A stretch of 64,000 nucleotides of DNA, from the NCBI GenBank assembly GCA_031213475.1, contig JARUPZ010000016.1, positions 2,413,140-2,477,139 on the forward strand, in the 5' to 3' direction. The notes under the pieces are model-generated. The model saw only the letters and a program-made list of their open reading frames with translations, searched no databases and was not told the origin of the DNA. The position numbers and the translations under genes are program-made. The stretch comes from Nereocystis luetkeana (Eukaryota > Sar > Phaeophyceae > Laminariales > Laminariaceae). This document shows, one piece after another, positions 18,501 through 62,228 of this stretch; the first letter of the stretch is position 1, and every line of letters begins with the position of its first letter.

Positions 18501-21500
18501 TTTGTCACTGGGACGGAGGCTCTCAACCGAAAACTACTACTGTATCCCACAAGGCATGCCTTAATCCCATCTGCGCTGCATTCATTTATTATTCGGTAAT
18601 ATCCCACAAGGCATGCCTTATCCCATCCGCGCTGCATTCATATGTTATTCGTTATACCAGGTACAACATATGAATGCAACGCCTGACGAAGACATTGGTC
18701 AAGGAAGTTTGGGTGAGACAATGCAGCACCCGGCAGGTGGCCAATGAGAACCTCAAGGAGCACGTCGGAGTTTGGGTAGAGGACCGCCGACCGGGGCAGC
18801 AGGCCTCACCCAATCCAAAACTGCCGTTGATTGATCGCGACGGCAGCGTAAAACAATAACTCAGGGTAAAATCGGCAACCCATCAACCGAAACTCAGGTT
18901 GGAAACCTCGTACCAAAATGTGGTTTACGGCGTTTCGTGCGATGGTCCGGGTCAACACAAGAGCCCGCCGTTCATTCGGGGGCCTAAACAAGCTTCGCAG
19001 CGAGAATAAGGAAGTAGGTGCAGGGAAAGATACAGACCTTCCCCAACCCCCCCCTACAAGCTTAGCATGTTATGGTTCTGTACACGGTAATTTATTTAAT
19101 TTCGATTTCAGGGAGGGACACCTCGCTGGGAGCGCACTCAGCGCGGAGATTAACCCTTTTAGTACCGCAGTCCCACGTTGGGGACAAACCGCTCAATTTT
19201 CAAGTACTTTGTCCCCCAACCGGGACTGCGGTGCTAACAGGGTTAACCACCCCCGTCTCGGTGCAGGAGGCCTCATCCAACCCAACACTTACATTGGGTG
19301 GCAGCACGAAGAAAGAGCGACAAAACACACACACACACACGCGCGCGCGCACGCACGCTCGCACACCCCCACCCCCCCCCCCAAAAAAAAAACGCACGGT
19401 ATCGCCCTCCGAACACAACGGTTCACGGAAAGACCGAAACAAAAGAAAAGACAGGACGACGAAAAAAGCGTACGCGTCGCCCTGCCAGACTGTGTACCAC
19501 ATCCCTCCCGGGAAGCAAAACAAAACAAGAACACACACAATACACACACAACCAAATGGGGCGCACGCACCTGTCCGTGCTCCCCACCACCCCAAGTATA
19601 CAGCTCCCCCGACTCGAGGATAGCTGCCGAATGAAACCCTCCGCACGCCACGTGCGAGACCATTTTCCCGACTAACGCCTGTCAGGGTGTTGTAGCGTCC
19701 GAAGTCGAAGTCAACGCAAGCGCGGCCAACGGAGGCAAGGGGGGGGGGGGGGGGGGAGCGCACTCGATAGGAGAGATGTACTCGATATCATGCATGGCCG
19801 TAGTCGTATGACCATATACCCCCGCATCCCTACAAGGGGGGGAAGGGGGGGGGAGACAGCTAAGACGGCGGGTGGGGGGGGGGGGAAGGAGGGGGCGGCA
19901 CATGATCGGAAAAGGCAGAAAACACGTATACACGTTTACCTGCGAAACACAGACCGGAAACAAGCGAAAAAATCGTTGGACCTTTGTCGTCCAACGCAAA
20001 CGAACGAGCCGGTGCCGCAAGTATGTTGCAACACGTTTGTGGGAGCGGCCCAGGGGAGGGGGGGGTGCCAAGCTACGAGACGTACGTGCGTGCCGGGGTG
20101 GTTCTGAGCTAAGAGACACATTGATACATGCGGGGATTTGGCTTCTCCCGACTAACGTCTGCCGGGGTATCGAGGCGTCCGAAGTCGAAATCAACGCAAG
20201 CGTGGCCAGCGGGGGCAGAGCGGGAGGTACTTACTGGTTGCTTGCCTTAGTCATTTTGACCATAACCACGCATCCCTTTCGAGACGGAGCACCGTTCCTG
20301 CACTTGGGGCGCTTACTACCTTTTTTTCGTTATCCTCCGGCCGATCGGCCAAAATACAGCCCAAGCTCACCACACCTATTACGTGGTTTCCATATAAGTA
20401 GTACATACCCGGAAAAAGTGTTGGGTTGGTACTATAAATAGGCCAAAAGGCATACGGGTTGGCGTGGCGCTAATAAATACATTAAAAGGCGTTTTACTTT
20501 ACACGCCGGGGTCGTGCTACGGACTTTACATGCCGGGGTCGTGTCGTGCTACGCAAGCTACACCAGGTACACGAGGCATACGTGCGGCACGGTCGCAGAA
20601 ATGTTTCAAGCTGTACGCTGTGCTTGTCATGGGGTGCATGAAGCATTGGTCGGTGCCCGGAGCCAACTCCACTCACGCTGCCGACGCCTGTTCCCCGTCT
20701 GGTGCGCAGCAGCTAAAAAACAAACAAAGAAACAAACACACACCACACACACGAACACACACGGACATGCGGGTATACACAAGCCGGCGAATCACACACA
20801 GCACACAGCCACGCACGATTGCCCCATCCCCAAACCACCCTATCGACGTAGTAGGAGGAGAAACTATGACCGCTTCCATCCTTCGCGCGGGCCAATCAAT
20901 CGTCTCGCCGCGAGCGAACGCCTCCAGCGAACGCGCCCACTCACCCAACCCCGCCCGCGCGTCCACAGTAACCAGAAATCAACATGGGCCCAAACAACCA
21001 TGTATCCCCCTTTGTATGTGTACACACCACAATTGTCCCGCTATGATTAATAATTATACGTTCCCCCGAAATAGCAGGAGAGAATGAAAAATAAATAGCA
21101 GAAGATAATAAAAAAAAAAAAACACGAAAAACCCCCCGAAACGAATATCGGAAGAAATCGATTGTCGCGCGCAAACTCTCGCGTACCTCCACCAATCTCG
21201 GCACCAACTGATTTCTCTCCATGCAGTGGCCCAACCGCCCGAATTTTCCTGAGGATGCGGAAAATCGCAAGTCGGAGAAGCAGCAGCAGCAGCAGCAGTA
21301 GCAGCAGCAACCGCAAGAAGGGTCGTGCGGAGGGAGGGAGGGAGGGAGGGAGGGAGGGAGGGAGGGAGGGAGGGAGGGAGGGAGGGAGGAAGGGAGGGAA
21401 GATGGCGGGGAGAGTCGTGAATAAAATCGTTTTTCGCTGACTTGCGAGACACCACTCCCCCATTAACCGTAGACTATACTCGTATACTCTTCTAAAAAAT

Positions 21501-27700: not shown

Positions 27701-30700
27701 CGTACCTCATTACCTAATCCGTCCGAGGCATGAACTAACGACTTGATAGTAGCAGTCGAAGCAGCAAAGCAGGGAGTCACGGTGGGCAATGATACGGTGT
27801 CGGGATTGATGTTTACTGATGACTTCGTGGGGGTATCAGAAACAACCGAAGCATTGCAAAAGTAACTCGAAAGGCGCTACAGTAGGAATTGGAGGGTGAC
27901 GGCGTACGCCTAAAAGTGCGCAGTAGTTGTACGTAACGAAACACGATGCGAACCCGGTAAATTTCAGTTGGAAGTGGGGAGAAAGGTGAATTACCGATCG
28001 TAGACCAGTACACGTACCTTGGCGTAAACACATCAAAATACTGCTCTTGGGATAGACACACAGCATATGTAAGGGGGAACGGTAAGGCACACGTACGCAA
28101 GATGGATGCGATCCTAACGAACTCGCACCTTGACACCAGGATTAAGGTATGTATCCTGATGAATGTGATCGTACCGAAAGCTAGAATGCGCAGTAGAAAT
28201 AAGGGAAGAGGATGCGAAGCCCGTAAAACAGCTGGCAATAGTACAGATGACAGCAGCCAAAAGAATAGTAGGATGCTCAAGTTCGACGAGTAATACACAG
28301 TACTCATAACAGAACTGGTAACAGAACTGGGACCGTACCCACTAGAGGCAAACAGAGAGAGGACCCCTAACAATCTGGGAGAAGGGATCTTTGGGTTGGT
28401 AGGCTGTTCAGGTGTTTTGGTTCCTGTTGGGATCAAGGTACGGGCGAAGACCCAACCCAACCCAACCCCAGACTCTAACCTAACCCTAACCCTAACCCTA
28501 ACCCCAAACCGCAGCCAAAACGGGCCAAAACTCGCCATAAACGCGGCTGCGCCGCGTTTGCGTCGAACCAGGAAATTTCTCAGTTGCGGACGACGATTCC
28601 GAAGTGCAGACCACGCTACACATTTTTCAACTCAAAAACATCCCTAAAGATCCCTTCTCCCAGATTGCTAAACGGGGAAAGTTGAAACGGCAACATAAAT
28701 AAAGTAAGGAACGTGCCAAAAAAGAGGTCGCCAGCCATAGTTGATAGAGCTGTACCTGGTATGGGAGAAAGCAACAAAAGGGCGAGCTGGAATACTGTGG
28801 GATAGCGTAGTCGATAAAGCACGGACGGATATAGGAGCATACCAAGAAGGGCTGATGTCCGTAGACACGTTTGGGAGGTACAGGACAGAAGTAGAAAACA
28901 TTATGGGAGAGGAGGCAAAGGCTAGCGCTGAGAAATACGGTTAAATCGGAGAACTACTTGAGAGATATTCGGGGGGTTGAGCGAAGGGATAGGAATGAAA
29001 ACGTATTTGCACAGCCCAGCGGACTTCGCGAAAACGCCGAAACTGCGATTTCGTGTAGGTGACCTTGGACCTGCCAGATGTAGGAAAGAGATACGCCAGT
29101 AGCCAGGAGGAAGAAGAAGGTGCCCAGATGTGCCCGTGTGGCGAAGCAATAGAGAGTAGAACTCACATATTAATAGTAGGAAAATGTGAAATGTACAAGG
29201 AGGGACGGGATGCGTTAGAAGAGATGAGGAAAATAGACGAATGTGACACGGAGGGGTTTGGTACACTAGATAGCAGCGAGAAAAGGATCTCTATCCTAGG
29301 AGATAGCTTCCGCTCCAGAGTAATTGAAGCCTGTCCTGCGACCACGGACTGCATCGTATTGTGAGTTAATGTGAGAACAACAACAATAGATGGTGGCCAC
29401 AGGCGGCCAAACAGGAAGGGGATAAGATGAGCAAAACAATGTAATGAGCGCCCAACTGTTGGAAGTGTCTCTATTCGGATAGGGACGGTGCTGCGTCTCG
29501 AAAGGGATGCGTGGTCAACGGTCAAATGGCTACGGCAAGCAACATATGAGTATCCCCCCCCCCCCCCCATCCCCCCTCACTCCGCATAAAGGGAATGATC
29601 GTATAACGTACTGCAGTGTGTATATGGTGAGGCACCCACGAGGCAGTTGCATAGTAAAACCATTGCTGTCTCTGGAAGTAGTCACAACAGAAAACAAATC
29701 GATTCATTGACGCTGTCAGCCATATGCAAGAAACTCCGCCCCACAAGCGGTTCTTAATGTACAGGATGCAGTTCACCCTTCGTGCCACTCGCCCTACACC
29801 TCACGGTGCTTCGCGCTTGGTGCAAGCAATATCTGGTCGGTGAAAATCCATCGTGCTCCGTTCCCGCATTTAGGCATGCGAGGGTCTATGGTCATACGAC
29901 TTCGGCCGTGCATGAGATCGAGTACATCTCTCCTATCGAATACCCCCCCCCCTCCGCCTGCGGCCATGCATGAGATCGAGTACATCTCTCCTATCGAGTA
30001 CACCCCCCTCCGCCGTCGGCCGGTTTGCCTCGCATTTTGCCTGCGAGTACCTGATTGAAGTCGGCAAGTCGGCTCGCCATCAGTTGGCTTCGCCAACCAA
30101 CTTGCCGACTAAAGCGACTTATTCGGCTACCGGCATCTACCGATTAATTATTATACTAGTCTCTGATGACACCATCGAGTGTCTCGGAGGTAGAAATTAC
30201 CCCTGTGTCCGGAAATATAGGAAGCGTTGTCACAGTAATATTCAATACAAAATGTCCATATATCTCGGGGCAGAGTGGAAAAAACTTGACACTGATTAAT
30301 ACCTTGAACATCATTGATGGAGCCTTTTCGGCACTTCAAAGGGGGGGAAAAAAGGACTCTTTAACCCTTTTAGGACTGCAGTCTCGTTTACGGAACAATT
30401 GGGGACAAATTACTTGGAATATGAGTGCCTTGCCCCCAAAACGGGACTGACTGGAGTTCTCAAGGGGTTAAGAAGTGACGACGACCGCACCGGTCACTGC
30501 GTCGTGGGGGGGGGAGAGATACCAACTGGTGTCCGAGTTAGAAGGCGTCAGACGGCACGGCCGCGACCAAAACAGTGAGCGGTAGCCCCAAGAATCAGCC
30601 CTGCTTGGTCGCCGATGCTGGTCTGTGGCAAGGTGTCTCATTCGGGTACCCACAGGATGCAGCTTGTACGATACTCCGCTCAGATTAGACTCCACCGTAG

Positions 30701-32326
30701 GCCGAAAACGGCGATCGGTCGCCCTTCTCCCAGCAAAAGAAAGCTAGCCAACGAGTAGGTGGCGCTTATCCTTGAGGAAAGTACGAGCGCATCGCTTGTC
30801 CGTCAGGCTCGACGCCTAACGCCGCGGCTCCACTTTTTTCTAATTTCGGCTTTTTTTCAGAGGGGCGCAGCAACGAAGCAGGTACACGTCATAAAAAATA
30901 CGAGTGTCATATGTACCTGGTACGCTTTGCAACTAGTCTTCACGTATACCGTGCGATCTCAATTTTTTTTTTTACGAACATATTCTACTTTTAGCAGTGT
31001 GTACAGCAATACAACATGAAACCACGTGGTTAAAAATGTGTATCGTACTCGTGCTCGAAACTCGCGGAACAGTCTTGATGTGCTATTGTAGTACGTACTA
31101 TTAATAGTAGAAGGCACGAGAGTACCACATCCCTCCCTGCAGTCTCCCTACCGTGCCTCCTACAGTATGGTTCTGAGGGTGTGGCGGTTTTGGTGAGGCT
31201 CCAGTTGCCCCGGTATAGCTACACACGGGTACAGCAGCATATTTGTGTGCTCACCACATGCATGCTTGGTACCTGGTACCTGGGAATATTCACAGGCTGT
31301 GAGGACTGATCTTTGCTTTCCTCAAAGACGTTTCACAAATCTCAGTCGAACTCACAGCTGACCTATTTCATAATTTTATAAAATCTCAGCGGAGTTATCC
31401 CGTGAATTACACCAAGAGAGACAACAAAAAGAGGTTAAAATATAAAAAAATAGGTGCCCTGTTTCATACGTACCGAGACTGCTCCCTTAACCCCTTTAGA
31501 ACCGCAGTCCCGTTTTGGGGACAAACTACTTAAAATTTGACTGGGTTGTCCCCAAAATGGGACTGCGGTTCAAAAGGGGTTAACGCCACCCGTTCCAAGA
31601 CTGTTCGGGAGATAAGGCCAGGTAAATCGGCTTGTTATATTCTAGGAAAATAAGAATTGGAATTAGTGTCGTCAGTAGTAAAGGATAAGACCCATGGTGC
31701 GTACTATTCATTCAGGTAAGACTGCGTTTTTTGGTGTGTCACGGGGTGGTCTTAAAAATGGGTACCCCGCTGTATACACACATACACACAACTCCGCAAA
31801 AACTTTCGAACGCAGCCAACTGTACACTGCTGTCTGTACCTACAGCACCGGTATCCAACTCAGCAACTAGTCGGTAAAATGTAACCAGCCGATTGACTGT
31901 AGCATACCTGGTATTCATCCATCCATCTAGCCATCTATTTACCTACAAGAATATAGATGTCTATCTATCTATCCATCTATCTATCTATCTATCTATCGTT
32001 GGCCAACTATTACGGCGGACCATAGTAAATAGGACCTGCGGTACACACAAAAACATATATATTTACCTACTTTTACTAACAATATTTGGTCCTATTTACT
32101 ATGGCCCCCCGTAGTAGCAACCACAACAGAATCAGCAGACCCACAGCCCGACCCTTCCGGCTATGGTGAAGCCTCCGCTCACCGCTTAGAACGACGGTGT
32201 GTCCGCTACCGCAAGCAACCTGCACGACACCCTTCGACTTCAGGGCGTCAACTAGCACCGGCTTGTCTTGGTCGTTTGTGTCCCCCAGCCCAAGCTGCCC
32301 GTCCTCGCCCCGACCCCAGGAGTAAA
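3483..32326 (-). CDS. RCBTB: RCC1 propeller + BTB/BACK protein, 14 exons (first exon missing)
   Basis: RCBTB-type protein rebuilt from 14 minus-strand exons (coding 32183-32326, 26644-26762, 25770-25850, 23597-23725, 21856-22033, 21187-21248, 19571-19678, 17155-17277, 14630-14737, 12993-13163, 10998-11137, 9544-9616, 4482-4631, 3483-3536). The joined frame is 546 residues to a TGA; animal RCBTB1 is about 531. Residues 1-365 hold seven RCC1 blades with repeated YTWG, LGHGD and ACGxxHT motifs; about 382-475 is a BTB fold (SDVTFIVEG, HFRAMF, LLEYVYAD); 480-546 resembles the BACK-like tail of RCBTB1. Family members are cytosolic or nuclear and BTB parts often bind cullin-3; that role here is inferred. 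All introns are AG-ended, all donors GT except one GC. The gene lacks only a short 5' exon ending in phase 1, which I could not find. Introns total about 27 kb and are full of transposable elements. Confidence 0.93.
3745..3990 (-). mobile_element. tRNA-derived SINE, truncated copy
   Basis: Aligns to the body of the SINE at 63585-63903 (TCTTCTTCTCTCTCCCTTCT, CTACGGT, ACTCGC-TCGAATTG blocks). The tRNA-like head is lost. Confidence 0.6.
4121..4217. mobile_element. MITE-2 hairpin
   Basis: Full copy in RCBTB intron 13. Confidence 0.85.
4268..4465. mobile_element. MITE-3
   Basis: GTGCCGGTTG-rich repeat with ACAGTAATGGTCCCT end; contacts the RCBTB exon 13 donor side. Confidence 0.75.
4482..4631 (-). 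CDS. RCBTB: RCBTB exon 13 (BACK-like region)
   Basis: 50 codons, WLCELAVQKGITTDNSAALL through RFVVRHFDTVSKSE; the segment matches [20 protein letters not shown] of animal RCBTB1. Acceptor ctccag, donor GTACGC, phase 0 both sides. The downstream intron begins directly against a MITE-3 copy. Confidence 0.92.
5001..5105. mobile_element. MITE-1
   Basis: Reference copy: inverted ends TTACGGGGGACCATAG, interior GGTACACATAAAAACCTATA and CTAACAATATTTGGTCC; TA on both sides. No coding capacity. Confidence 0.9.
5370..5467. mobile_element. MITE-2 hairpin
   Basis: Full copy. Confidence 0.85.
5590..5668 (+). repeat. short dispersed repeat (family I)
   Basis: AAGAACCGCTTGGTCTTCAT and CCAGAGTGGT; found in reverse at 17358-17435. 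Confidence 0.6.
5728..5833. mobile_element. MITE-1
   Basis: Copy in opposite orientation to 5001-5105. Confidence 0.85.
5903..6009. mobile_element. MITE-1
   Basis: Full copy, same orientation as 5728-5833. Confidence 0.88.
6305..6392. mobile_element. MITE-2 hairpin, first of a direct pair
   Basis: Shares unusual GGGCCTGGGGTTC changes with its neighbour, so the pair arose by tandem duplication. Confidence 0.8.
6394..6492. mobile_element. MITE-2 hairpin, second of a direct pair
   Basis: As above. Confidence 0.8.
7272..7327. repeat. minisatellite, 20-bp unit
   Basis: GCTACGCACCAGGCACACAC in almost three copies. Confidence 0.8.
8870..8920. repeat. GC-rich hairpin
   Basis: GGGCGGC and GCCGCCC flank GAAG, with related GCGAGCGTAGCG / GCGGAGCGAAGCG shoulders. 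Confidence 0.5.
9544..9616 (-). CDS. RCBTB: RCBTB exon 12 (end of BTB)
   Basis: 73 nt giving S then VDVSLEDAVELFIAADLYTL and DRLK; matches the VDLPPEDAIGLLDLAT segment of animal RCBTB1. Phase 2 in, phase 0 out; acceptor gacag, donor GTTTGT. A 17-nt C-run precedes the acceptor by about 24 nt. Confidence 0.9.
9963..10033. mobile_element. MITE-1, degenerate fragment
   Basis: CACGGGGGAGGCATAGTAAT then AACCTACAG; directly before a full copy. Confidence 0.5.
10034..10139. mobile_element. MITE-1
   Basis: Full copy with GGTATACATGAAAAAC interior. Confidence 0.88.
10570..10860. mobile_element. MITE-3, split by MITE-1
   Basis: CCGGCACTATATATAG blocks; interrupted at 10722-10825. Confidence 0.78.
10722..10825. 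mobile_element. MITE-1 nested in MITE-3
   Basis: Inserted at a TA of the MITE-3 copy 10570-10860; comparing with the empty site at 25.2 kb shows a TA duplication. Confidence 0.88.
10998..11137 (-). CDS. RCBTB: RCBTB exon 11 (second half of BTB)
   Basis: Encodes ALLAARCQHFRAMFTSGMRE through LRVFKVLLEYVYAD, the BTB helices. Acceptor tgcag, donor GTGAGA, phase 0 in and phase 2 out. Confidence 0.93.
11425..11615. repeat. GGGTC-rich family G, copy 1
   Basis: Runs of GGGTC/GACCC with TTTTTCAAA-CTCTCACGG spacers; ends CGAGGTTTCACCCGAC. Confidence 0.7.
11735..12135. repeat. tandem repeat, about 85-bp units
   Basis: GGCTTTCACCCAGCTCAAAA recurs four times; MITE-1 splits one unit. Confidence 0.75.
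11811..11915. mobile_element. MITE-1
   Basis: Inserted in a tandem repeat array (11735-12135). Confidence 0.88.
12305..12425. mobile_element. MITE-3, decayed
   Basis: CAATCGCTTGACACAAATGG and CACCGGCACCATAA remain. Confidence 0.65.
12862..12965. mobile_element. MITE-1
   Basis: Full copy ending 28 bp from the RCBTB exon 10 donor. Confidence 0.88.
12993..13163 (-). CDS. RCBTB: RCBTB exon 10 (propeller closure and first half of BTB)
   Basis: 57 codons: VASYNEHTAALAG closes the propeller, a Ser-rich linker follows, then LLNNEELSDVTFIVEG and VYAHK open the BTB fold. The usual Cys-Gly of the ACGxxHT motif is replaced by Ser-Tyr. Acceptor tggcag, donor GTAAAG, phase 0 both sides. A decayed copy of its 5' edge lies at 13446-13480. 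Confidence 0.92.
13238..13415 (-). mobile_element. family A poly(C)-ended repeat
   Basis: Core CATGCATGGCC/GTATGACCATAG/TACAATGCCGGGACGGAG in reverse orientation, next to G-rich runs at 13209-13268. Inside RCBTB intron 9. Confidence 0.75.
13446..13480 (-). pseudogene. decayed duplicate of RCBTB exon 10 5' edge
   Basis: GCCAAGGCAGCCGTGTGCTC then TTGTACGA repeats 13131-13158 of exon 10; no acceptor or frame kept. Confidence 0.75.
14175..14286. mobile_element. MITE-1 (first of a pair)
   Basis: Interior has a CTGGTA insert at a TA. A second copy starts within 2 bp. Confidence 0.85.
14288..14393. mobile_element. MITE-1 (second of a pair)
   Basis: Same orientation as its neighbour. Confidence 0.85.
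14630..14737 (-). CDS. RCBTB: RCBTB exon 9 (blade 7)
   Basis: 36 codons (VYTFGNGDHGKLGHGDVRK ... NMHVIK). Acceptor ttccag, donor GTACGG, phase 0 both sides. Confidence 0.93.
15369..15459. mobile_element. MITE-2 hairpin
   Basis: Left tip shortened, hairpin otherwise intact. Confidence 0.8.
15664..15780. mobile_element. MITE-1
   Basis: Interior has a CCTGGTA insert at a TA; right end has an expanded C-run. Confidence 0.85.
16307..16615. mobile_element. MITE-3, split by MITE-1
   Basis: Ends GCAGTAGTGGCTGCTCCCT and AGGGACCACTACTC; interrupted at 16459-16563. Confidence 0.8.
16459..16563. mobile_element. MITE-1 nested in MITE-3
   Basis: Splits MITE-3 16307-16615 at a TA. Confidence 0.88.
16941..17040 (-). 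mobile_element. family A poly(C)-ended repeat, fragment
   Basis: G-run then GTACTCAATTTCGTGCATGG and the GACCATAGACCCTCGCG core. Confidence 0.7.
17068..17122 (-). mobile_element. LINE 3' end fragment
   Basis: Contains the reverse of the CACGCATCCCTTT / GGAGCACCGTTCC segment; next to a CT microsatellite. Confidence 0.55.
17127..17152. repeat. CT microsatellite
   Basis: CTCTCT run ending at the RCBTB exon 8 donor. Confidence 0.85.
17155..17277 (-). CDS. RCBTB: RCBTB exon 8 (blade 6)
   Basis: 41 codons (LGHGDKVNKTAPTLVEGLL ... GWSHTVGLTATGK). Acceptor gagcag, donor GTAAGA, phase 0 both sides. A CT microsatellite lies just inside the downstream intron. Confidence 0.93.
17355..17440 (-). repeat. 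short dispersed repeat (family I)
   Basis: Reverse copy of 5590-5668; a weaker copy is at 15785-15840. Confidence 0.6.
17659..17770. mobile_element. MITE-1
   Basis: Interior has a CCTGGTA insert; left flank is TATTAATA. Confidence 0.88.
17880..18110. repeat. tandem repeat, about 75-bp units
   Basis: AAATCGGCTT-GCACGAGAAAAA recurs three times; a related unit is at 31620. Confidence 0.65.
18130..18234. mobile_element. MITE-1
   Basis: Full but diverged copy. Confidence 0.8.
18305..18660. repeat. local duplications
   Basis: CTTTTTGCCCT-AAGGCA-TATT block at 18326 and 18478; a 57-bp ATCCCACAAGGCATGCCTTA unit repeated at 18543 and 18600. Confidence 0.7.
19150..19246. mobile_element. MITE-2 hairpin
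   Basis: Full copy. Confidence 0.85.
19571..19678 (-). CDS. RCBTB: RCBTB exon 7 (end of blade 5, start of blade 6)
   Basis: 36 codons (ALVGKMVSHVACGGFHSAAI ... ELYTWGGGEHGQ). Acceptor tgacag, donor GTGCGT, phase 0 both sides. The acceptor end is part of a segment duplicated at 20150-20218. Confidence 0.93.
19738..19840 (-). mobile_element. family A poly(C)-ended repeat, fragment
   Basis: G19 run then ACTCGATAGGAGAGATGTAC and the core; ends in a second G-run. Confidence 0.75.
20150..20218 (-). repeat. duplicate of RCBTB exon 7 acceptor region
   Basis: CGACTAACGTCTGCCGGGGT and AACGCAAGCGTGGCCA repeat 19673-19740, about 80% identical by eye. Confidence 0.75.
20222..20400 (-). mobile_element. 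LINE 3' end fragment
   Basis: Minus-strand copy of the LINE end (TTGCTTGCCTTAGTCATTTTGACC, shown here in part as GCTTGCCTTAGTCAT, then CTTTCGAGACGGAGCACCG). Confidence 0.7.
21187..21248 (-). CDS. RCBTB: RCBTB exon 6 (blade 5)
   Basis: 62 nt giving GKFGRLGHCMERNQLVPRLV and a final E; phase 1 in, phase 0 out. Acceptor cctcag, donor GTACGC. Confidence 0.9.
21283..21405. repeat. AGC and GGGA microsatellites
   Basis: CAG units at 21283-21310 then GGGAGGGA from 21330 to 21405, in RCBTB intron 5. Confidence 0.85.
21630..21800. repeat. CAA/CAG-rich tract
   Basis: Imperfect CAA and CAG triplets in RCBTB intron 5. Confidence 0.8.
21856..22033 (-). CDS. RCBTB: RCBTB exon 5 (blades 4-5)
   Basis: Encodes residues 159-217 (VYTWGDKENGVVGHTN ... 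CGFHTAALTDAGEIFTWGE). Acceptor ttcgag, donor GTGAGG, phase 0 in and phase 1 out. It corresponds to exon 9 plus the start of exon 10 without the intervening intron. Confidence 0.93.
22060..22455. repeat. minisatellite in RCBTB intron 4
   Basis: A-rich unit of about 90 bp (AAAATACGACGAAAAAC, AACGAACGAACG) in four copies. Confidence 0.8.
23015..23138 (+). mobile_element. two chained family A ends
   Basis: GATATCGAGTACA with C15, then immediately GCTCTGCCCCGGCATTGTAG through GATATCGAGTGCAC and a second C-run. Both fragments face the same way. Confidence 0.7.
23345..23475 (+). mobile_element. family A poly(C)-ended repeat, fragment
   Basis: CCCGACGTGCTCCGTCC core; the end is C-rich but interrupted. 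Confidence 0.65.
23597..23725 (-). CDS. RCBTB: RCBTB exon 4 (blade 3 core)
   Basis: 43 codons from LGHGNESGHPTPCMVK to HTVVLTDLGK. Acceptor acacag, donor GTATCT, phase 0 both sides. Same module type as exon 8. Confidence 0.93.
23889..24200 (-). mobile_element. family A poly(C)-ended repeat, long copy
   Basis: Starts at a long G-run (23887-23922) and continues past the core into GCGAGTCGCACGAAGGGTGA and GAGGCGGACTT, matching the 29.7-kb copy. Confidence 0.75.
24246..24551. mobile_element. family E inverted-repeat element, 306 bp
   Basis: Perfect 14-bp inverted ends CACCTCGGACAGAT. Interior rich in AGATCAT words. Confidence 0.8.
24845..25040 (-). mobile_element. tRNA-derived SINE, truncated copy
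   Basis: Same body blocks as the 63.6-kb copy (CAGATCCGGGG, GCAGGCTTTT, CTTCCCTCGGCAACTCGC). Head absent. Confidence 0.6.
25047..25260. mobile_element. MITE-3
   Basis: Uninterrupted copy used as the empty-site reference. Confidence 0.8.
25500..25745. repeat. CCCT-rich polypyrimidine tract
   Basis: Almost only C and T on plus; in RCBTB intron 3, where the minus strand is G/A. Confidence 0.85.
25770..25850 (-). CDS. RCBTB: RCBTB exon 3 (end of blade 2, start of blade 3)
   Basis: 27 codons, ATCGSYHTAAVTDMGELYTW followed by GGGMYGK. Acceptor gctcag, donor GTGAGC, phase 0 both sides. Same module type as exon 7. Confidence 0.93.
26205..26306. mobile_element. MITE-1, one end decayed
   Basis: Left end degenerate, right end CCCCCGTAA intact. 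Confidence 0.7.
26644..26762 (-). CDS. RCBTB: RCBTB exon 2 (RCC1 blade 2)
   Basis: Encodes residues 49-88 (AVYTWGRGDDGRLGHGDN ... GQRIVQ). Acceptor tatag; phase 1 in, phase 0 out. The donor reads CAG|GCGAGA, a GC donor; the frame continues correctly into the next exon only with this junction. Confidence 0.9.
27165..27475. repeat. tandem repeat, four 74-79-bp units
   Basis: Unit GGGTCGGCACTACGACTTGA ... TTATTAGTCGGACGAAT. Each unit has CCAACTA and TAGTTGG in inverted order. Lies just upstream of the LINE. Confidence 0.85.
27525..29573 (+). mobile_element. 5'-truncated LINE with poly(C) tail
   Basis: Non-LTR retrotransposon. The RT part reads LWKKLWEIGIRGKMCRMMKS, QGVAQG and the catalytic FTDD; further on come QYTYLGVNTS, a HVRKMDAILTNSHLDTRIKV thumb-like stretch, and a zinc-knuckle-like CPCGEAIESRTHI...C. 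The 5' end is lost within RT. Several stops break the frame. A 297-bp element sits at 28371-28667 and about 70 bp of extra sequence near 29310-29380. The 3' end passes through the segment shared with copies at 44, 49.9 and 51.6 kb and stops in C13 at 29559-29571. Confidence 0.85.
28371..28667. mobile_element. 297-bp inverted-repeat element holding telomere-like repeats
   Basis: Perfect 22-bp inverted ends starting CAATCTGGGAGA, flanked by CTAA on both sides (28367-28370 and 28668-28671), inserted in the LINE coding region. Its interior has CCAACCCAAC then four CCTAAC/CCTAACC units at about 28470-28505. No coding capacity, so it must be moved by another element. Confidence 0.85.
29575..29957 (+). 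mobile_element. family A poly(C)-ended repeat, longest copy
   Basis: About 380 bp, aligned end to end with 58870-59260 (TTGCTGTCTCTGGAAGTAG, GACGCTGTCAGCCATA, core, GAGATCGAGTACATCTCTCC). It follows the LINE C-run without a gap and ends in C9. No A/B boxes and no coding frame. Confidence 0.8.
29958..30013 (+). mobile_element. family A end fragment
   Basis: GGCCATGCATGAGATCGAG to GAGTACACC, starting within a few bases of the previous C-run. Confidence 0.7.
30361..30471. mobile_element. MITE-2 hairpin with small insertion
   Basis: Extra about 12 bp in the left arm. Confidence 0.8.
31487..31583. mobile_element. MITE-2 hairpin
   Basis: Full copy. Confidence 0.88.
31955..31998. repeat. TCTA microsatellite
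   Basis: ATCT units next to a MITE-1. Confidence 0.85.
32010..32114. mobile_element. MITE-1
   Basis: Full copy following a TCTA microsatellite, just upstream of the RCBTB exon 1 donor region. Confidence 0.85.
32183..32326 (-). CDS. RCBTB: RCBTB exon 1 of those recognised (RCC1 blade 1)
   Basis: Encodes residues 1-48, starting VYSWGRGEDGQLGLGD and ending ACGSGHTVVLS. Acceptor gcag before 32326 and donor GTGAGC at 32182 give phase 1 at both sides, so an upstream exon must supply the first base of the valine codon. A 30-nt run of mostly C on this strand lies about 40 nt upstream of the acceptor. Confidence 0.92.
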
Positions 32327-33218: not shown

Positions 33219-33321
33219 ATTAATAGCTAAAATCAGCAGTTACAAACCACGGCTCAATCTTAACCCTGATACGCAGCATTTTCGAGGTTTCTGCACTGTT
33301 TACCAGGTACCAGGTAGCTTT

Positions 33322-33944: not shown

Positions 33945-34513
33945 TAGTAGTGCTCCTGGACCCTGGCAGTCGGTAAACAGGCCCCCATGGCTGTTGCCTG
34001 TTGCCTCCACTGCCGTCCAGAGAGGGGACACGTTTCACGTTTCACGTCAAGGTACGTATCACTGCTGCTGTAGAGTATTAATAGTAATACTTACGTCAAG
34101 GACGGCGGGACTCGCATGATACATACCTGGTACATAAAACGTACTTACGTTTGTCTTCGTCTTTTCTTCACTTGCATTACAGGGACCTGCCTCGCGCTCA
34201 GAGAGCCTATGCGAAAAATCGTCGCTTCTAGATACCTGGTACGATATTTGCTTTCTTTGCGTTTTTTGGTTTCCTTGCGTGCTTTTGTTTTGCTTATTCG
34301 TGCCACGCTCTTTTTTTCTCTGGGAAAAACAACAGTTTTTTTTTTTGCGTTTTTTTGGTCTCTTTTCTCCCTCACACTAACCTCAAGATAAAATTCCCTA
34401 CACTAAATCCAAGATGACAAAAATCCCACACTAGATTCTCAAGTTACATGCACGCATACATACATACAGATTAAAGAGCGCTGCTCGACAACGGTAAAGG
34501 CTGCTTGCTACTA

Positions 34514-34643
34514 TTACGGGGGACCATAGTTAATAGGACCAAATATTGTTACTAGAAATGGTCAAATATATACCGGTACCTGGTAGGTTTTTTATGTATA
34601 CCACAGGTCCTATTAACTGGTACCAGGTATGGTCCCCCGTAAT
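34514..34643. mobile_element. MITE-1 with several micro-inserts
   Basis: Longer than consensus because of CCGGTA+CCTGGTA in the interior and a GGTACCAGG insert near the right end. Confidence 0.88.
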
Positions 34644-34833
34644 AAAAAGACAACGGTAAAGGCTGCTTGCTACAAAAAAGACTGTGGCAAGGCTGCTTGC
34701 TACTGGTACTGAGAGATAACGGACGGTAAGGCTGCTTGCTACTGCTACTGCTACTGTAAAGTCGAGCAACGTATTTTCGGAAGGCTCTCTTCCGGCCAGT
34801 TTTCTTTTGTTTTTTGTTTTCCCCGAAAACACC

Positions 34834-38029: not shown

Positions 38030-38400
38030 TGTAGAGTACAGTATTTTCGAGATGAAGCACTTCGCAAGTAGAGTCCAGTATTTTCGAGATGAAGTACTTC
38101 GCAAGTAGAGTACAGTATTTTCCAGATGAAGTACTTCATGTACCACTGATACAGTATTTCGGGTAAATGTACTGCTGTACCAGGTATGCAAGTACTCGCA
38201 GTATTCGAGGTTCAGTATTGCGAATACCGGGCTCGCGATTTCGGGGTTCGGTACAGTAGATACTCACGGCACTTCACACGTATTTCAGGATCATGTACCG
38301 CGAGTACATGCAGTACTCGCAGTATTTCGTCTGTTGGTACTGCGAGTACTCCGAGTATTCGCAGTATCAAAATACTCTCCATAAACACAGTACACTCGGA
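38030..38400. repeat. tandem GTAC/CAGTATT-rich repeats
   Basis: About 37-bp unit GTACAGTATTTTCGAGATGA in three copies, then GTACTCGCAGTATT units. Confidence 0.7.
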
Positions 38401-39494
38401 TCATGACGTCTAATATATACTTCGACCATTTATTCGTGCGCCGTTTCGACAAAGCCATCCCCATTTATTTTCTAAAACGTGAAAAACATTAGCGTGTTTG
38501 CGAAAGAACCGATTGTGGTTGGGTTGAGAGCCACAGGTTACTCACCAAACCAAAAAATAATCGGGTTTGAAACTGCTTGCGAGAACCCAAAACGATAATT
38601 CTAGTTTCGAACTGGAAATAAAATTCTACCAGGTAGGAATTTAGAATACAGCAACAAATGACAAATAACGAAATAAAAGTACGAAACATGGAACACCAAC
38701 GGCTTCGCACGAGATGCTGCTCCTTGCTGCTGCTGCGTGGCTCGCTGCGTTTGTGTGTGCTCTGTGTGCTCTATGGCAGTCATGCGAAGAGTGCCAATCG
38801 ATGCGTCCGGGGCCTGTTGTGCAGTGCGTGCGTAGGCGTGCTGTGGGTGTGCCTGTGGTGCGGTGACACGCCCCAGAGCCCACAGTACCGCCACTTTGTT
38901 GCCGCAGCAACAAGCGGCACAGCAGAGCAACAACTTCAGCAGCAGTCCACAACGCACACGGCGCCGTCAACGATGCTGAAGCTGCACCCTGCCAGCACTC
39001 CGCCGCATATTGCCGTATGCCTTTGCCGGCCATAACGAGGGCTTCGCGTCGACACGGACTCGCCGAATGGGCCGTGCACTTGTGGTTAGATAGCTTGGTG
39101 GTGAGAGGCAACCATGCATCATGCCTCCCTCCTTCTGGCTGCTGCTGTACGCTGTGCGATGAGTACCTGACATAGACGATTCTGATTTCTTGCCAAATAC
39201 GATGTTCTCATTCGTCCTGGGCGATTCCGGGTTGTCCTGGCCAATAGGGTGATGATCCTAATCGAAACCCAAGAAGTCAAACCTAACCCGATTTTTTTGC
39301 GAAGATATGGGCCACATGAGCCGATTTTGAGTCCTGATTTTGGGAAGTTGATTATTTTTTGGGATCGGGAGAATAGAAATAGGCCAAACCAAACCATAAT
39401 CTGAAGCTCGCAAACACCATATTCACAGAATGGTCCCACGTACCCACGAGTGGGAGTAGGAGCAAATAACGTTCGGGGGGGGGGGCTACGGGAG

Positions 39495-39860
39495 TACCAG
39501 GTATGTATCATAGAGTACTGGGCGTATTTCGGGAGTATACCTTGTACGATGCTGTGAGTACTCGCAGTATTTCGGGGTCCAATACTCCGGATACTCTTGA
39601 GTACTGCATCTGTTTCGGAGGTTTGTACTGCGGGTACCTTGTACTCGGGGTTTTGTACCGCCCATACTCCCCTTACTGGCAGTATGCGGGCCTTCAGTCC
39701 TGTTCATACTCCCAGTACTATTAATATCAATATTTAATACAAGGTATTAATAGCAGTATTTGGGCCTTCAGTTGTTCTGCTCCTAGTCCCAGTACTCGCA
39801 GTAATTAGGCCGCCAGCACTGCAAAAGCTCTCGGTACTCGGAGTACGAAATGTACTCGAT
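39495..39860. repeat. AGTACTCGCAGTATT-rich repeats
   Basis: Degenerate run of short GTACT/AGTAC units related to 38.2 kb. Confidence 0.6.
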
Positions 39861-41091
39861 GCTCCGAGAATACCTGGTACGTCGTGCAGAGAAAGGAGTG
39901 ATAACCCGTGAGCAGCGAGAGAGCGAGAGGGCGGCAGAGCCGACAGGCAGACAGGCAGGCTTACCGCCTCTGGTACGCCACAGATACGTAACAAAAACAA
40001 CGGCAGCGGTCGGGAATATAATACCCCTTTGATACACCCATCAGCTTAGAAACAGGGCCTATATTCTCGTTCAAAGTGGCATACCTATGCTATAGGACGC
40101 CTACTACTATGCCTCCTGCAGCACCAGCACCTCGTTCAAATCCTCTCTTCAGTGCAATAGTTCCACGGATATATGGTACGTACCTGGTACCTCTGGTACT
40201 GACCTGCTACAACTGGGACACATCCCGTACATACTCGAAGAAGCCCTTCGCGAGACTCGACAGGACGGGAAAGCAAGCAGTAGGTAGGTAGTGTAGGTAC
40301 GAGTAGCAGTATGAAAATTATGAAACGCAACAGACAGAGGATAGAGCAAGCACGCGAGTGCTACAAAATACCACCCTCTGCTGTGTAACCCCACGTGAAT
40401 GACCACAAACACGAGTACCCTGGCAAACGCGCCGCCGCAACAGGCTCAACGAGCTACTGCTGACCTGTAGATACGACGTGTTCGTATTGAAGTCAAAGTC
40501 CCCCCTGCATCCCAGAGGGTTCGGTGCTTCCCAGGCTTACCCTTCTCGTAACATAGGAGTAGAGGCAATCGTACAACAAATTGTTCACACATCATACCTG
40601 GTATCACGACACTGGAGTCAGTATCATACCAAGCAAAATATACGAGAAAAGGCTAGAGGCACTTGAGACATCGATCTACAGCTTTTCGGAGGATGTCCGG
40701 CCTCTTTTTCGGGCGGTGTAAGCACCGTGGACGCGTACAGAGCGCCCGAGACAGTGCTGTACATATGCAAGTAAATATTCCCTTGCTCCGTGTTCTTACC
40801 TAGGCCGGCAACCTCATGCATCCTCGCCGGCAAAGTGTGTCCCGAATCGAGTGCCTCTCTTGAGTACGAGTATAGTGCGGCTTTCTGGTATATATATCAT
40901 ATGGTGCACGAAAAAAGGAGGCTCTATATCTTGCGCAGGCCGTTACGCAAAGGGGATTATTTGTGGATTCCCACCGCCAAATACTGCATGGCGCCTCAAA
41001 GGGTTTTGTTTGTGTGCTGCTTCTCAGCGTGTCTGCTGTAGCGGGGCCAAGGGACGGGGGCACCTGCCTGGATTGCAACAGGCGGTAGTAA

Positions 41092-42071
41092 ATGCCCGCA
41101 GTAGTTGAGAGCTCCAAGGAAAGGGCCAAGCTATTCAGCACCTTGGACCGGTCTGGGGCGCACTTTATTTCTGTTGGATCGGGATCATCATCGGACTCGG
41201 AAGGCGACGACTCGCAGGAGGACGGCGAGCAGGGATCGGAGACGAAGGCTACGCAAGGTGCGGCCGTATGTGCGAGTAGCGACACTCGCGTGCGCTGCTC
41301 TTGGTGAATGCGAGACCGCCCGTACGGATATCTGGGTGTTGATATAACGGAGTGTGTCTGGTGTTGTTTGGGCGGGTCAGCTTGAGGATTTTGCCTCTTC
41401 AGCCAGTCGTGTGCCTATTAATAGTGCCTACGAGTACCGGTATTTAATCTGCCTGCACGAACGTCTTTACTCTCGACGAGTACCAGGTACAGCAATACAT
41501 ATGTACAAGTATGTCGTACGCACTCGGAGAGCGTACAACCGCCGCCCGTGTTGTGTCTTTGGAGTGCTCGCTGTAAAGGTAGGTGGTGAGGTGGTGATGT
41601 GGTGATATCCTTCGTAGAAGACGCTGAAGACCGACGGATCCCGTTTTGATCGAGATGTAGCAGAGGCATACCGGTACACACGAACTTCGATGTAAAAGTG
41701 ACGCCCACCCCATGCATGCATATACGTACGTAACCTCGGCCTGGTCAGGAACAAACACAACAAATCGCCCATCTAAAATTGGTGTTCCAAGCAGCCGCGC
41801 TGCTGTCCTGTACATTTGCACATCTGCACGCGTGCCCGAGTGTTTGCTTTACCCATATCATCCGTCGACCGTAAAATCCCGTCTCTCGAGAGACCTCACA
41901 TTTGGAGTGATTGCCCAGAACACAGCAGTCCCGCTGTTCTACGAGTACTACAACGCCACCCTGGACGATAAATTCCTCGCTAGCGTGGCATTTGAACAGG
42001 GCGACTGCCGGTATGTGCTGGCCGATCGTTCTCTCACCGGAGACGTGATCATGGTCGAAGGCTTTTCGTAA
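41092..42071 (+). CDS. possible two-exon gene, unrecognised
   Basis: Candidate exons 41092-41257 and 41893-42071. The first starts at an ATG (MPAVVESSKERAKLFSTLDR) and turns Ser/Asp/Glu-rich; its possible donor is GTGCGG in phase 1. The second begins after gagag in the matching phase and reads DLTFGVIAQNTAVPLFYEYY and SVAFEQGDCRYVLADRS before TAA. The result would be 114 residues. The splice sites are weak and no family is recognised; it could also be the tail of a longer gene or chance. Confidence 0.33.
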
Positions 42072-42649
42072 TGGGTAGAGTAAACGCTTGGTCGCGCGTG
42101 CAGGCAGACAACAGATCAGCTGCTTGGGCTACCGACTTGGTTTTTTTAGTTGGTCTTATTACAAGCAGCTGGTCTGCTCTCTGCACCCGCGACAGATTTT
42201 GATTGTGGGGAGTGATAGTCACGACCACGTTATTGGTTACCAGGTATTATGTACCTGGGTAGGCGAGACTTGAATCGCGACTACGGGGGCATTTATAATC
42301 CATCCCCGGGTTTCAGGCCTTCTGTTTCGCATTTTCCCGCCGCATCCGTCCTCTCCAACAACCAGCAACATGCCGGCTAACCCCCACAGACCAGTGGGCA
42401 TCGACATCGAAGCCCCTGCAACAGGGTCTTCGCGTCGATTAAGCCCTACACCTGCTCGTACTGCTGCTGTTGTAGCTGTACATGACGCGAACAACCACTC
42501 TCGCAGCCCTCAAGACTGACACCTGTACGTAGCAGTCCCACCTCGACAAAGTAAGGCCTGGATGAAAGCCGGGGATAGCTCCTAAACTTCCCTGTAGTCG
42601 GGAGTTAACTATCACCCCGTATATTACGTCCAGTCGTCGTGATCGTCAG

Positions 42650-44838: not shown

Positions 44839-47800
44839 GTGAGAACCGTGCTTCCGCAGGACGGTACGGGGCTGTTGCACTTCAGCGCGCAGTTGTTTTA
44901 GCTCTCGCGGACGGAGCGGAGCTCCTCCTCGATTGAGGAGGCCAGCCCAATATCTTTGAACCCGTTGAAAACAATCACGAAAATGTTCGTTGGGTAACCA
45001 GCCAGTGGGATTTGTACGTCGGGCTTAGCTTACAACGTTTCGTACCTCGGACAGATCATACAGATCATGATCTATTTATCTATATATCTACAGTAGATCA
45101 TCTATTACGGGGGACCGTAGTAAATAGGATTAAATATTGTTAGTAGAAATAGCGAAATACATAAGTTTTTGTGTGTACCATTGGTCCTATTTAATATGGT
45201 CCCCGGTAGTAGTTCCTCACCCGCCGTTGTGCAAGATCTGCATAGTACATATCCAACCCAGGAAACATGTGATTAACCCTGTTCTTAATAGTACGTACCG
45301 CAGTCTCGTTGTGGGGACAAACCAGGCGATTTTTAAGTAGTTTGTCCCCAAAACGGGACGGCGGTTCGAAAAGGGTTGAGTGGATCGTGCGGATTATATA
45401 CGGAATCCATCCGGCAATACGAGCCACTGTAGATCATACGAGAGATTGTTAATATATCTGCCTTGGAAGATCAGATGATGAAGTCGGAACCGATCGCCTC
45501 TCCGAAGTGTGCGCAGCGTTTCCCACGGATGTTGGGGTGGGGCATGGAACCCTCCTCAAGTTAGATGAACAAACAAAAAAACTCACACAATTTATGGGGC
45601 TACGCACCCCTAGAAGTCAAGCACGTCAGGCCAGGCTCTTACCATGGCCACTTTGAGAATAAGACTGCTGTAAGTCGTCGGCTTTTGCTACGGGGGGGCA
45701 TAGTAATACATGGCAATACGTACGTAGTAATAGCAAAACCAACTTTTATGGGAAATTATTCCTGGGCCTCCAGGAACTGAGATTTTAGGCCGAACATACG
45801 CACGCGTTTCACTCGGCGGACAGTCGAAAACACCGGTAGACTCCTCAGAATGCTCCCCGGAGTTTTTCGAGGGTTTTCTGGAATAATTTCCCGTTTCTCC
45901 AGAGTCCTAGAATAGCTTGATTTTCGGAGCATCCAATCAGTTTTCTCTGCAGGGTCAAGAATAAAAGATAACACTACTGCTGTCACAGCTGGGGCCAGAA
46001 ATTATGGGTCTTTTTTGTGAAAAATCATGATGTCCTCAAAACTGGCAATTGGCGATGTAGACGAACAGTCCAACCACGATGCCGGAGAAACGGAGAAGTG
46101 TTCAAGAAACCTCTCGGAATTTCGAGGGGAGCATCCTGAGGAGTCCATCGGTGTTTTTTGACAGTCCCGCCGAGTATTATGGGAAAAAAATGTGGGGCTC
46201 TAGAACAACTGTTTTTTTTTGCCGAAAACCCGCGATTGACTCGGCGGGACTGCCACAAACACCGATGGACTCCTCAGGATGCTCCCCTTATTAATAGTAT
46301 TCCGAGAAGTTTCTTGGATAGTTTTCCGTTTCTCCAGAGTCGTGGTTGGACTGTTCGTCCATCCTGCCAGTTCTGAGGACATCATGATTTTTCACCGAAA
46401 AATCTCGAAGATCCTTCATTTCTGGCCCCGGTTGTGACAAAACGAGCTTCCTTCTGACCCCCCAGAGAAAACTGATTCGCTGCTCCAAAAGTCAAAACTA
46501 GGACTCCGGAGGTGCGGAAAGCTATTCCAGAAAGCTCTCAGAAAGCTCCGGGGAGCATTCTGAGGAGTCTACCGGTGTTTTTGACTGTCCCGCCCAGGAT
46601 AACGCGGATGTTCCTGGAGCCCCAGAAATATCTTCCCATAGTAGTCGTTGGTCTATTAATAATACATACTAGTGGGTACCAAGTACCATGTATGCACCTG
46701 TCTGTACCTGGTACGTATTACTACCGTGCTTCCCTCTATTAACGTATCGAAATTACGCAACCACGATCGGTTATTTTTCTCTCCCTCGAGTACAGCAGCA
46801 AGCTTTGCGGTCTATGATCTACAAGCACGACGATGGTAAGATATACATAGGGAGGGTTGGGGCTGGGTGCCTAGAGGAGTCTATTAATAGTCTAGCCCCA
46901 ACGGTCAACGGCCCCAGCAAGGTGAGGCGAGGCCACACTCCTAATCCAACGAGCGGACTGTGAATTGTCCGACTGCCGTGTGAGGAATGCGGGTTATCGC
47001 GCAGGGGTGCGCGGTCGTTTCTCAGCGATCCTTTTTTTTTTTTTTACGATCGTTTTCGCGATAACGGGAAGGTTTTGCCGATTACCGAACAAGCGCGTTC
47101 TTCGGAAAAACATCTGGTCGGGCAGAGCCATCCGAAAATACCAGGGCGTTTTCGCGGGGTCATGATCCGATCGCGGATCGGGTCAGGAAGGTTTAGAAAT
47201 ATCACAGGTTGGGTCGGATCGGCTGGGGTCGGGTCAGGAAGTTTTTGAAACTCTCAAGGGTCGGGTCGGGTCGGGTCGGGTCGGATTTTTGAACTCTCAC
47301 GGGTCGGGTCGGGTCGGATCGCATCGTGTTTTTGAACTCCCACGGGTCGGGTCGGGTCGGGTCGGGTCGGGTCACCCTTACCTGACCAGACCCGACCTGA
47401 CCCGCGAGGTTTGACCCGACCCGTAAACAGCGCTGGGAAAATACCATGTTCTTTTAGTATTTTTTAGTATTAGTACTACAGTAGAACCCTTACCGTTACT
47501 GAGAGAAAACGAGCAGCGCTGGAAAACGATCGTGTACCAATACCCCTGTGCGATAACCCACATCCTTACTGTTTACGTCGCCGACTAGTTATTGTTTGGC
47601 TGGGCACTGCAGATTGGTTGCGGCGGCGCCAACTATTCGACTGTTCGGATGTTCTTATTCTCAGGAAGGCTTGATAGGTTTGGTTTCAGCGTAACTTTGT
47701 GTGTGTGCTCAAGTACGCCGAACACCACGTAGCGTCGGCGTGTCCTCCTGGGGAGCTGGGGCGCCTTCAGCGGACCCTCCGGCGTCGCTTGCCTCGGGCG

Positions 47801-57934: not shown

Positions 57935-58770
57935 CGGGGGGGGTACTCTTAGCTGTCGTCTACCGGGCGCGCTGATGAAAAGCAGTAATAAAAAAACGAT
58001 ACCAGGTATATACCCCAAGGGAGGTCACGAACGAAAAAAAAAAATGGAGCGACTTCCTAGAAGAAGGGGAAAAAAACAAACACACACACATCGGAGAGTT
58101 GTGATTTCTGCTCCAGCAGTAGTATCTATCCCCTGTCTGGCTCTCTCGAAAAAAAAGGCGGGTTAGAAATTGATCATGTTTTCGTGCTCCCCTGATATAT
58201 CGGAGATTTTTTATGAGAGATGTTTCGGTCCGACGCCGCGGATCTCGTCCGGGTTCGCCTTATGTGTAAGGACCTCCGCGGCTTCAAAACGGAGCAGAGG
58301 AAGGCATGTTCTATCCCCTGTAATGGTACGAGTTGGCGGTCGCGGAAATCAATATGTCGCTTCGCTCGTAGTAAAAAAGGGTGGGCATCCGTCGCAACAC
58401 CCCGAGACTGTCGACGGGTTCAAGAGGAAAATAACAAAAGCTGACAAAAAAACTGCCTTGTGTAAGTAAAAGACCGGTTGGTTGCAGGACATCAGCGTCC
58501 CTCCAAACACTGTTTTCAATATTACACGATTACCCCCCAAGCATGGGGGGTGGGGTGGGGCGGGGGGGGGGGGGGGGTCCGAGTCAAACGCACCTCACGT
58601 CACCTCTTGATGCCGCAGACTGCTAGCGAACGTTGGCAGCGTTCCGCGAATACACACTAGCAGAACTGTGTCACAAAGCGCGCCCTACTCAGTTCTTAGC
58701 AGACACAAGGTGCATTCGACCGAGCAACGCACTTTGTCAGGGTCTCGCTTTTACGGTGGCCTGCTGATCT
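57935..58770. other. intergenic, no gene seen
   Basis: A short ATG frame at 58220 ends at a GTACGAG donor-like site but has no partner exon. Confidence 0.4.
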
Positions 58771-58869: not shown

Positions 58870-59260
58870 TCCCCATCAACACACGCATACCCTGGATGAT
58901 CGTGTCACGTACCCTGGTAGTGTACCTGGTATATGGTATGGCACTCACAAAGCAGTTACATAGTATGCCCGTTGCTGTCTCTGAAAGTGGCCCATTGCTG
59001 TCTCTAGGAGTGGCAACACCAGGAAATTAATCAATTCACCGACGCTGTCATCCATACGCAAGAAAATCTGCCTCGAAAGCGTACGTAGCGGTTTCTAGTA
59101 GGATACAGCTCACTCTGCATGAGACTCGCCCATCACCTCACGTTCCGCTTCGCGCCTGACCCGACGTGCTCCGTCCCGGCATTGCAGGGACGCGAGGATC
59201 TATGGTCATACGACGACGGCCATGCATGACAATGAGTTCACCCCCCCCCCCCCCTCCCCC
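58870..59260 (+). mobile_element. family A poly(C)-ended repeat, longest copy
   Basis: Aligned end to end with 29575-29957. Carries extra CCTGGTA-type inserts relative to that copy near 58914 and 58924. Confidence 0.8.
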
Positions 59261-62112: not shown

Positions 62113-62228
62113 ATTACGGGGGACCACAGTAAATAGGACCTACGGTAAACAAAAAAACTACATATTTACGTATTTTACTATTAAATAACAACATTTGGTC
62201 CTACCGGTATTAACTTTGGTCCCCCGAA
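62113..62228. mobile_element. MITE-1 with micro-inserts
   Basis: Has CCGGTA and TTAAATA inserts at TA sites relative to consensus. Confidence 0.82.

Follow-up and report, generated by a model that had tools for sequence, protein, structure and literature searches.

MITE-1 copies and short insertions at their TA sites

The window, by which we mean the whole 64,000-nt stretch analysed (C16:2413140-2477139 of a 465-Mb assembly in 1,987 contigs), contains no fewer than 24 full-length copies of MITE-1, a 109-bp element of the form TA-TTACGGGGGACC...GGTCCCCCGTAA-TA with perfect 17-bp terminal repeats. The copy under study is longer than this because it carries a tandem insertion and a messier 10-base insert at another TA (Table 1). 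The latter looks like a double scar minus four bases, since at the matching site of two other MITE-1 copies (in L002 and L008) both scars are complete. Clean insertions at TA were present in five of the 24 copies aligned, and all five cases named in a preliminary description of this DNA proved real (TACTGG at 14221, TACCTGG at 15711 and 17716, TACCGG plus TACCTGG at 34571, and TACCGG at 62202), with two of its coordinates moved, from 17714 to 17716 and from 62207 to 62202. That description had made its reading depend on empty counterparts of the insertions; these were found among the aligned MITE-1 copies, indicating that the words are not mere motif bias.

Table 1. Insertions and words read as excision scars in the window, in order of position
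Feature	Position	Strand	Basis or remark
TACCTGGTA	5249..5257	.	word count
TACCGGTA (2+2 form)	6230..6237	.	others at 7416, 7556, 16608, 41435, 41669, besides 34571, 62202
TACCTGGTA	9251..9259	.	word count
TACCAGGTA	10454..10462	.	word count
TACCAGGTA	12136..12144	.	word count
Scar TA-CTGG-TA in MITE-1 copy	14221..14228	.	6-bp insertion, hot TA
Scar TA-CCTGG-TA in MITE-1 copy	15711..15719	.	7-bp insertion, hot TA
Scar TA-CCTGG-TA in minus-strand MITE-1 copy	17716..17724	.	7-bp insertion, hot TA
TACCTGGTA	18316..18324	.	word count
TACCAGGTA	18655..18663	.	word count
TACCTGGTA	28753..28761	.	word count
TACCTGGTA	30914..30922	.	word count
TACCTGGTA, then a second TACCTGG	31270..31278	.	word count
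TACCTGGTA	31905..31913	.	word count
Tandem scar TA-CCAGG-TA-CCAGG-TA	33301..33316	.	word count
TACCTGGTA	34124..34132	.	word count
TACCTGGTA	34233..34241	.	word count
MITE-1 copy with scars	34512..34644	-	133 bp versus 109; aligned with 23 other full copies
Tandem scar TA-CCGG-TA-CCTGG-TA at the MITE-1 hot TA	34571..34585	.	13-bp insertion versus empty copies
10 extra bases at another MITE-1 TA, interpreted as a double scar with a partial deletion	34617..34629	.	alignment
TACCAGGTA	38178..38186	.	word count
TACCAGGTA	38627..38635	.	word count
TACCAGGTA	39495..39503	.	word count
TACCTGGTA	39871..39879	.	word count
TACCTGGTA	40181..40189	.	word count
TACCTGGTA	40595..40603	.	word count
TACCAGGTA	41481..41489	.	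word count
TACCAGGTA	42238..42246	.	word count
TACCTGGTA	46705..46713	.	word count
TACCTGGTA	53239..53247	.	word count
TACCTGGTA	56523..56531	.	word count
TACCAGGTA	58000..58008	.	word count
TACCTGGTA	58923..58931	.	word count
TACCTGGTA at 61587 and TACCAGGTA at 61614, with TACTGGTA at 61600 between	61587..61622	.	
TA-TTAAA-TA insertion in the MITE-1 copy of the 62202 scar	62179..62187	.	form of a 3+2 MITE-1 scar
Scar TA-CCGG-TA in MITE-1 copy	62202..62209	.	6-bp insertion, 13 alignments

Across the genome, the hot MITE-1 TA with exact flanks was empty in 2,891 copies and carried a 3-30 bp insert in 586, a figure that includes MITE-1 copies already scarred and is thus not a count of events; the reversed pattern at the hot site yielded no inserts. 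Counts within MITE-1 also lack independence, because a copy may multiply after it has been scarred. Among the first 100 of the 586 inserts, 97 began with TA and were followed by TA, 83 began with TACC, and 73 contained TACCWGG, with 56 being exactly TACCAGG (33) or TACCTGG (23). The others were CCGG (3), CCAG (3), CTGG (2), CCATGG (2), CCAGGG (2), CCCTGG (2), CCTAGG (1), arrays of at least two CC units (11), CTTCGAAG (3, with a single variant besides) and 14 singletons. CC-type inserts were also present in 11 of 69 MITE-1 copies that had not been selected by the query (from 97 aligned copies, minus the L001 copies and the query hits themselves), an alignment limited to copies that large inserts had not split in BLAST (as they had in, e.g., L002, L008, L023 and L026). 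Further MITE-1 inserts in L006, L038 and L002 differed or aligned unclearly, and IMG/VR gave no match to the MITE-1 end in a search from which the organism's own genome was maybe left out.

Outside MITE-1, an all-against-all alignment of repeats placed the TA form in 2 of 35 seven-base inserts (one of the two at a MITE edge) and 3 of 54 six-base inserts, which is no excess, and gave about one clear CC scar with an empty counterpart (L013 2622). Empty-site proof beyond MITE-1 is therefore thin.

Abundance of TACCWGGTA

TACCWGGTA occurred 33 times in the window, compared to a mean of 0.34 and a maximum of 2 in 100 dinucleotide shuffles, in agreement with the earlier estimate by eye of more than 30 occurrences where fewer than one is expected of a 9-mer. 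CCWGG was the most enriched of all five-base cores between two TAs (33 versus 0.54 under a third-order Markov model of the window), while TACCGGTA occurred eight times and TACCSGGTA once. In the whole assembly we counted 182,395 TACCWGGTA words, not all of them independent excisions, versus 1,744 for the reversed-word control, a density of about one per 2.5 kb. TACCSGGTA numbered 10,882 (reversed control, 1,899), making a C/G centre 17-fold rarer than an A/T centre (W:S of 17:1). For comparison, 200 kb drawn from contigs C1-C8, as twenty 10-kb stretches placed at round coordinates, contained 62 TACCWGGTA words, so that the window is somewhat rich in them and not exceptional.

In the window, TACCTGG at 1772 and TACCAGG at 1183 lie inside a CAAGGCATGCCTT-like palindrome whose right side is without TA, a possible insertion at CA. 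Interstitial telomere-like CCCTAA repeats occupy 28450-28507, and a CCCTAA stretch also lies inside a MITE-1 copy in L051. The interstitial repeats in the window, a MYND-finger gene and the size of the genome point to a eukaryote.

Classes of probable scars, and target signatures

We then considered the bases on either side of the words. CCWGG flanks outside MITE-1 (n=140) bore a symmetric signature, with Y at +1 (p=1.8e-13) and T at +6 (p=1.8e-15, sides pooled for both), and CCGG words outside MITE-1 (n=25) had this target signature in common with them. As the signature is common to both classes and differs from that of MITE-1, CCWGG and CCGG probably come from one parent, which is not MITE-1.

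MITE-1 itself provided a positive control. Its insertion sites (38 copies, sides pooled) had G, T and A at +1 to +3 at frequencies of.61,.59 and.50, and the flanks of TATTAATA outside MITE-1 (n=81) had.53,.59 and.55, with a small departure at +6, where A stood at.41 for TATTAATA and.30 for MITE-1. As in footprints of the Tc1/mariner type, the core of TATTAATA matches the ends of a known element: between the two TAs stand TT, with which MITE-1 begins, and AA, with which it closes. Since its flanks match the target signature of MITE-1, MITE-1 appears to have left TT|AA excision scars, and the match suggests that scars can be assigned to parents via their target signature. Empty-site cases of TATTAA were seen at 46289 in the window and at L049 7096. 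It is doubtful that the TTAAA insertion at 62179 is a 3+2 scar of MITE-1, because the TTAAA/TTTAA words that such scars would produce (13 in number) have only T at +2 in common with the MITE-1 signature. TATTAATA occurs 19 times in the window (4737, 12229, 31099, 33218, 46882 and 14 others), with TAC-TA-GTA as its target.

Two other kinds of word were observed. TA-CWG-TA words number 38 in the window versus 11 expected and prefer C-TA-G flanks; besides 37 other TACAGTA/TACTGTA words, one is inserted in a 74-bp tandem array at 27348-27354. Their form is that of Sleeping Beauty-type scars, and a third element is perhaps their source. The perfect 8-base palindrome TA-CTTCGAAG-TA, found at the hot MITE-1 TA in the L024 1501 copy and at C3:7540884, C3:14161142 and C5:9371140, possibly represents a fourth scar family.

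Six-base cores bear on the ends of the CC element. TACCNNGGTA occurred 28,845 times genome-wide (reversed control, 4,918). Among the first 100 of these, CCAGGG/CCCTGG accounted for 34 (27 without seven words of a 528-bp tandem array) versus 4 for CCTGGG/CCCAGG, and CCATGG for 13 versus 1 for CCTAGG. Element ends CCAG...CTGG predict CCAGGG, CCCTGG and CCATGG, whereas ends CCTG...CAGG predict CCTGGG, CCCAGG and CCTAGG; because the first set prevails, the element would have ended in CCAG...CTGG, a refinement of the CC...GG ends first proposed. The remaining 48 (by NN: CG 14, TC 8, GA 8, GG 6, CC 3, AA 3, TT 2, GC 2, GT 2) are classes that the scar model does not predict and are partly background. 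The 528-bp array (C1:1304145-1308362) carries a scar-like word within its unit: TACCAGGGTA occurs there eight times, in seven cases at a spacing of exactly 528 bp.

Tandem scars and sequence decay were also quantified. At least two CC units were present in 11 of 100 scarred hot sites (first 100 of 586) versus 9 of 100 expected from independent re-insertion with 16.9% of hot sites scarred (p=0.48), a match that makes a special tandem process unnecessary. The centre base was C or G in 5.6% of words (10,882/193,277), TA beside scar words had often turned into TG or CA, and 69 MITE-1 copies had a mean divergence of 12.7% from their consensus, subfamilies included. The decay of the centre base and of TA fits scars that have diverged by several per cent, which does not amount to a dating.

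Search for a parent element

The preliminary description had proposed a search for a TA-flanked element with CC/GG termini. We found nothing fitting in the ~358 kb scanned for paired TACC or TACCAG ends (the window included; L001, a repeat of the window, left out), and among 94 pairs in which both ends read TACCAG, the best agreed in 7 of 12 further bases. One scan for terminal inverted repeats (TIRs) reported its best 25 pairs and another ran without TACCAGGTA starts, which the best-25 scan covers. Among the matches listed, TIR candidates with TACC or TACCAG leads were pieces of MITE-1, larger repeats or matches of chance quality; L042 2622-3209 and L002 129-923 and 93-1158 were rejected as parents because each is part of a longer repeat and has no TA boundary at its start. 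The DNA scanned holds 227 scar words and no recognised intact element, which fits the earlier statement that the family survives mainly as scars. By the rule of three, this sets a rough upper bound of ~3,900 intact copies, presuming recognisably alike ends and an element that fits the stretches scanned (mostly 3 or 10 kb).

In 136 cases TACCWGG was followed by something other than TA, with TG (28) and CA (22) in the lead as they would be for mutated TA, and these words had no common continuation beyond known repeats. At the hot site, 41 copies (14 + 27) did not continue with TA after TACCWGG; the 20 of these that were read contained no intact element, as 18 resumed MITE-1 at once, one ran into telomere-like repeats and one was not a MITE, in a test that is blind to a parent with a fifth base other than G and from which TACCWGGG copies were left out. 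Interrupted MITE-1 matches had no intact insert at the hot TA.

Profile searches for transposases gave a mixed result. DDE_3 (PF13358), searched exon by exon with only the best candidates scored, matched 0 of 30 scored candidates and 3 of 14 controls, and the mariner profile Transposase_1 (PF01359) matched neither this genome nor any control genome. A loosened Mos1-like ITR start (CCAGGTGTACAAGTA) had six matches on six contigs, with no inverted pair among them, compared to 0 for the reversed control and ~2 expected from mutated scars; these neither show nor exclude a mariner. DDE_1 (PF03184) produced 28 matches in the genome, several without stops and one (L065) confirmed with a Pfam E of 8.8e-30. 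Elements of this group are pogo/Tigger-like and target TA; any link between them and CC ends is putative. Together with the lack of mariner and DDE_3 matches, the DDE_1 matches make it conceivable, if somewhat doubtful, that the same scar model holds with a DDE_1 element as parent in place of a mariner with Mos1-like ends. However, L065, the one locus read of the 28, has no TIR pair in 2.4 kb, and a mariner is the better fit, by resemblance only, in that most of the Mos1-tribe 5' ends listed in PMC3419177 begin with CCAGG.

Proposed mechanism and alternatives

These data make it very probable that TACCWGGTA words mark the excision of a cut-and-paste DNA transposon, distinct from MITE-1, that targets TA. 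What was observed is that the words are inserted at TAs for which empty counterparts exist, that they fall into a spectrum of classes, that they have a target signature in common and that they are abundant genome-wide; cut geometry, element ends, mismatch step and the parent's identity belong to the model fitted to them. The earlier view of the words as scars of a TA-duplicating element is thus upheld by the empty sites, the TA duplication and the scar classes. Its description of the family as very active and cleanly excised fares less well: excision is not clean, with 4-6 bp plus TA left behind, and the activity is read from scar counts alone, because the parent was not found.

In the model, the element would insert at TA, duplicating it, and would later be cut out by a transposase that may cut the 5' strands ~3 nt inside the ends CCAG...CTGG, so that each flank keeps a short 3' overhang, CCA, and host end joining seals both flanks. 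Two CCA overhangs with a one-base overlap (A facing A) would yield the five bases CC-A-GG, and repair of the A:A mismatch would give CCAGG or CCTGG. Loss of the mismatch would leave CCGG, three bases kept from both ends CCATGG, and four plus two end bases CCAGGG or CCCTGG, while a hot TA hit again by later insertions would acquire tandem scars. Alternatively, the overhangs could be 5 nt long and read CCAGG, pairing with each other except for a mismatch at the centre, and would then lead to the same major products. Both overhang models predict equal shares of CCAGG and CCTGG, and the observed 33:23 is compatible with them (p=0.23).

Several known systems leave comparable traces. The footprints of Sleeping Beauty and Frog Prince are C(A/T)GTA and that of Hsmar1 is T(T/A)A, as given in Table 1 of PMC3878927. 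Like these Tc1/mariner elements, ours combines TA duplication with an odd-length core that has an A/T centre and would consist of the element's first and last bases; unlike the 3-nt CWG of Sleeping Beauty and Frog Prince, it has a 5-nt CCWGG core, an unseen parent and 182,395 words in one genome. Mos1-tribe mariners, with ends CCAGGTGTACAAGTA (PMC3419177), would resemble it in their terminal CCAGG, and the 3-nt stagger of the Mos1 cut, as stated in PMC4505599, would leave CCA overhangs. In contrast to that tribe, there is here no mariner transposase profile match and only six unpaired ITR-like words. In grasses, Stowaway and Osmar5 scars keep 1-4 bp of terminal repeat between TA duplications and allow re-insertion at the scarred site, as they would here, but those described in PMC1925063 are single loci, whereas ours form a genome-wide word.

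The remaining alternatives do away with the excised element or with ordinary excision. The 7-bp unit might itself have been inserted, as transposon-end fragments or templated repair filler joined into TA breaks made by a transposase, with the full element never present. The inserts are indeed very uniform, and no intact parent was seen in the scans and hot-site reads. Nevertheless we consider this improbable, given that ordinary excision of MITE-1 seems to have produced analogous scars in this genome, that the 2+2, 3+2, 3+3 and 4+2 series reads as two joined ends, and that the duplicated TA and the symmetry of the target signature are as after real integration. A domesticated transposase that removes TA-bounded segments in a programmed manner, as in ciliates, and leaves scars in the sequenced nucleus would account for the TA boundaries, but we regard this as very improbable: ciliate excision is precise to one TA, and scars in tandem are in keeping with heritable rounds of insertion and excision at one site. 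Least credible of all is a bias in sequence motifs, or a conserved palindrome that binds a protein and has drifted to high frequency. Although TACCWGGTA is near-palindromic and abundant, comparison with empty copies of a dispersed MITE shows it to be inserted (a contradiction found within MITE-1 and less well tested outside it), and it also occurs in tandem and has a tail of variants with TG or CA in place of TA.

Probable scars as a record of transposition

Scars of this kind are known from Tc1/mariner elements; what is new is the five-base CCWGG core, the ~180,000 copies and the lack of any parent in sight. A narrow literature search returned no paper on TACCTGGTA/TACCAGGTA as transposon words or on extinct-transposon scars, although one may still be published. 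Tentatively, in a reading that falls a little short of probable, this is a ghost transposon, absent or left in very few copies, with more than 180,000 excision scars as nearly its only trace. Were that true, the terminal bases of an element, its target preference and the end-joining habits of its host would be readable from scars alone; no copy of the element having been found, they are almost the only source for the history given here.

Repeat catalogues count elements and not scars. As scar words exceed intact parents by ~47:1 or more (182,395 versus the rough upper bound of ~3,900), a catalogue of elements would miss most past transposition in this genome. The match between TATTAATA and MITE-1 offers an example of assigning a scar to its parent by target signature, and because MITE-1 copies are targets with known empty states, rates of insertion and excision, target choice and the outcomes of end joining are measurable from one assembly.
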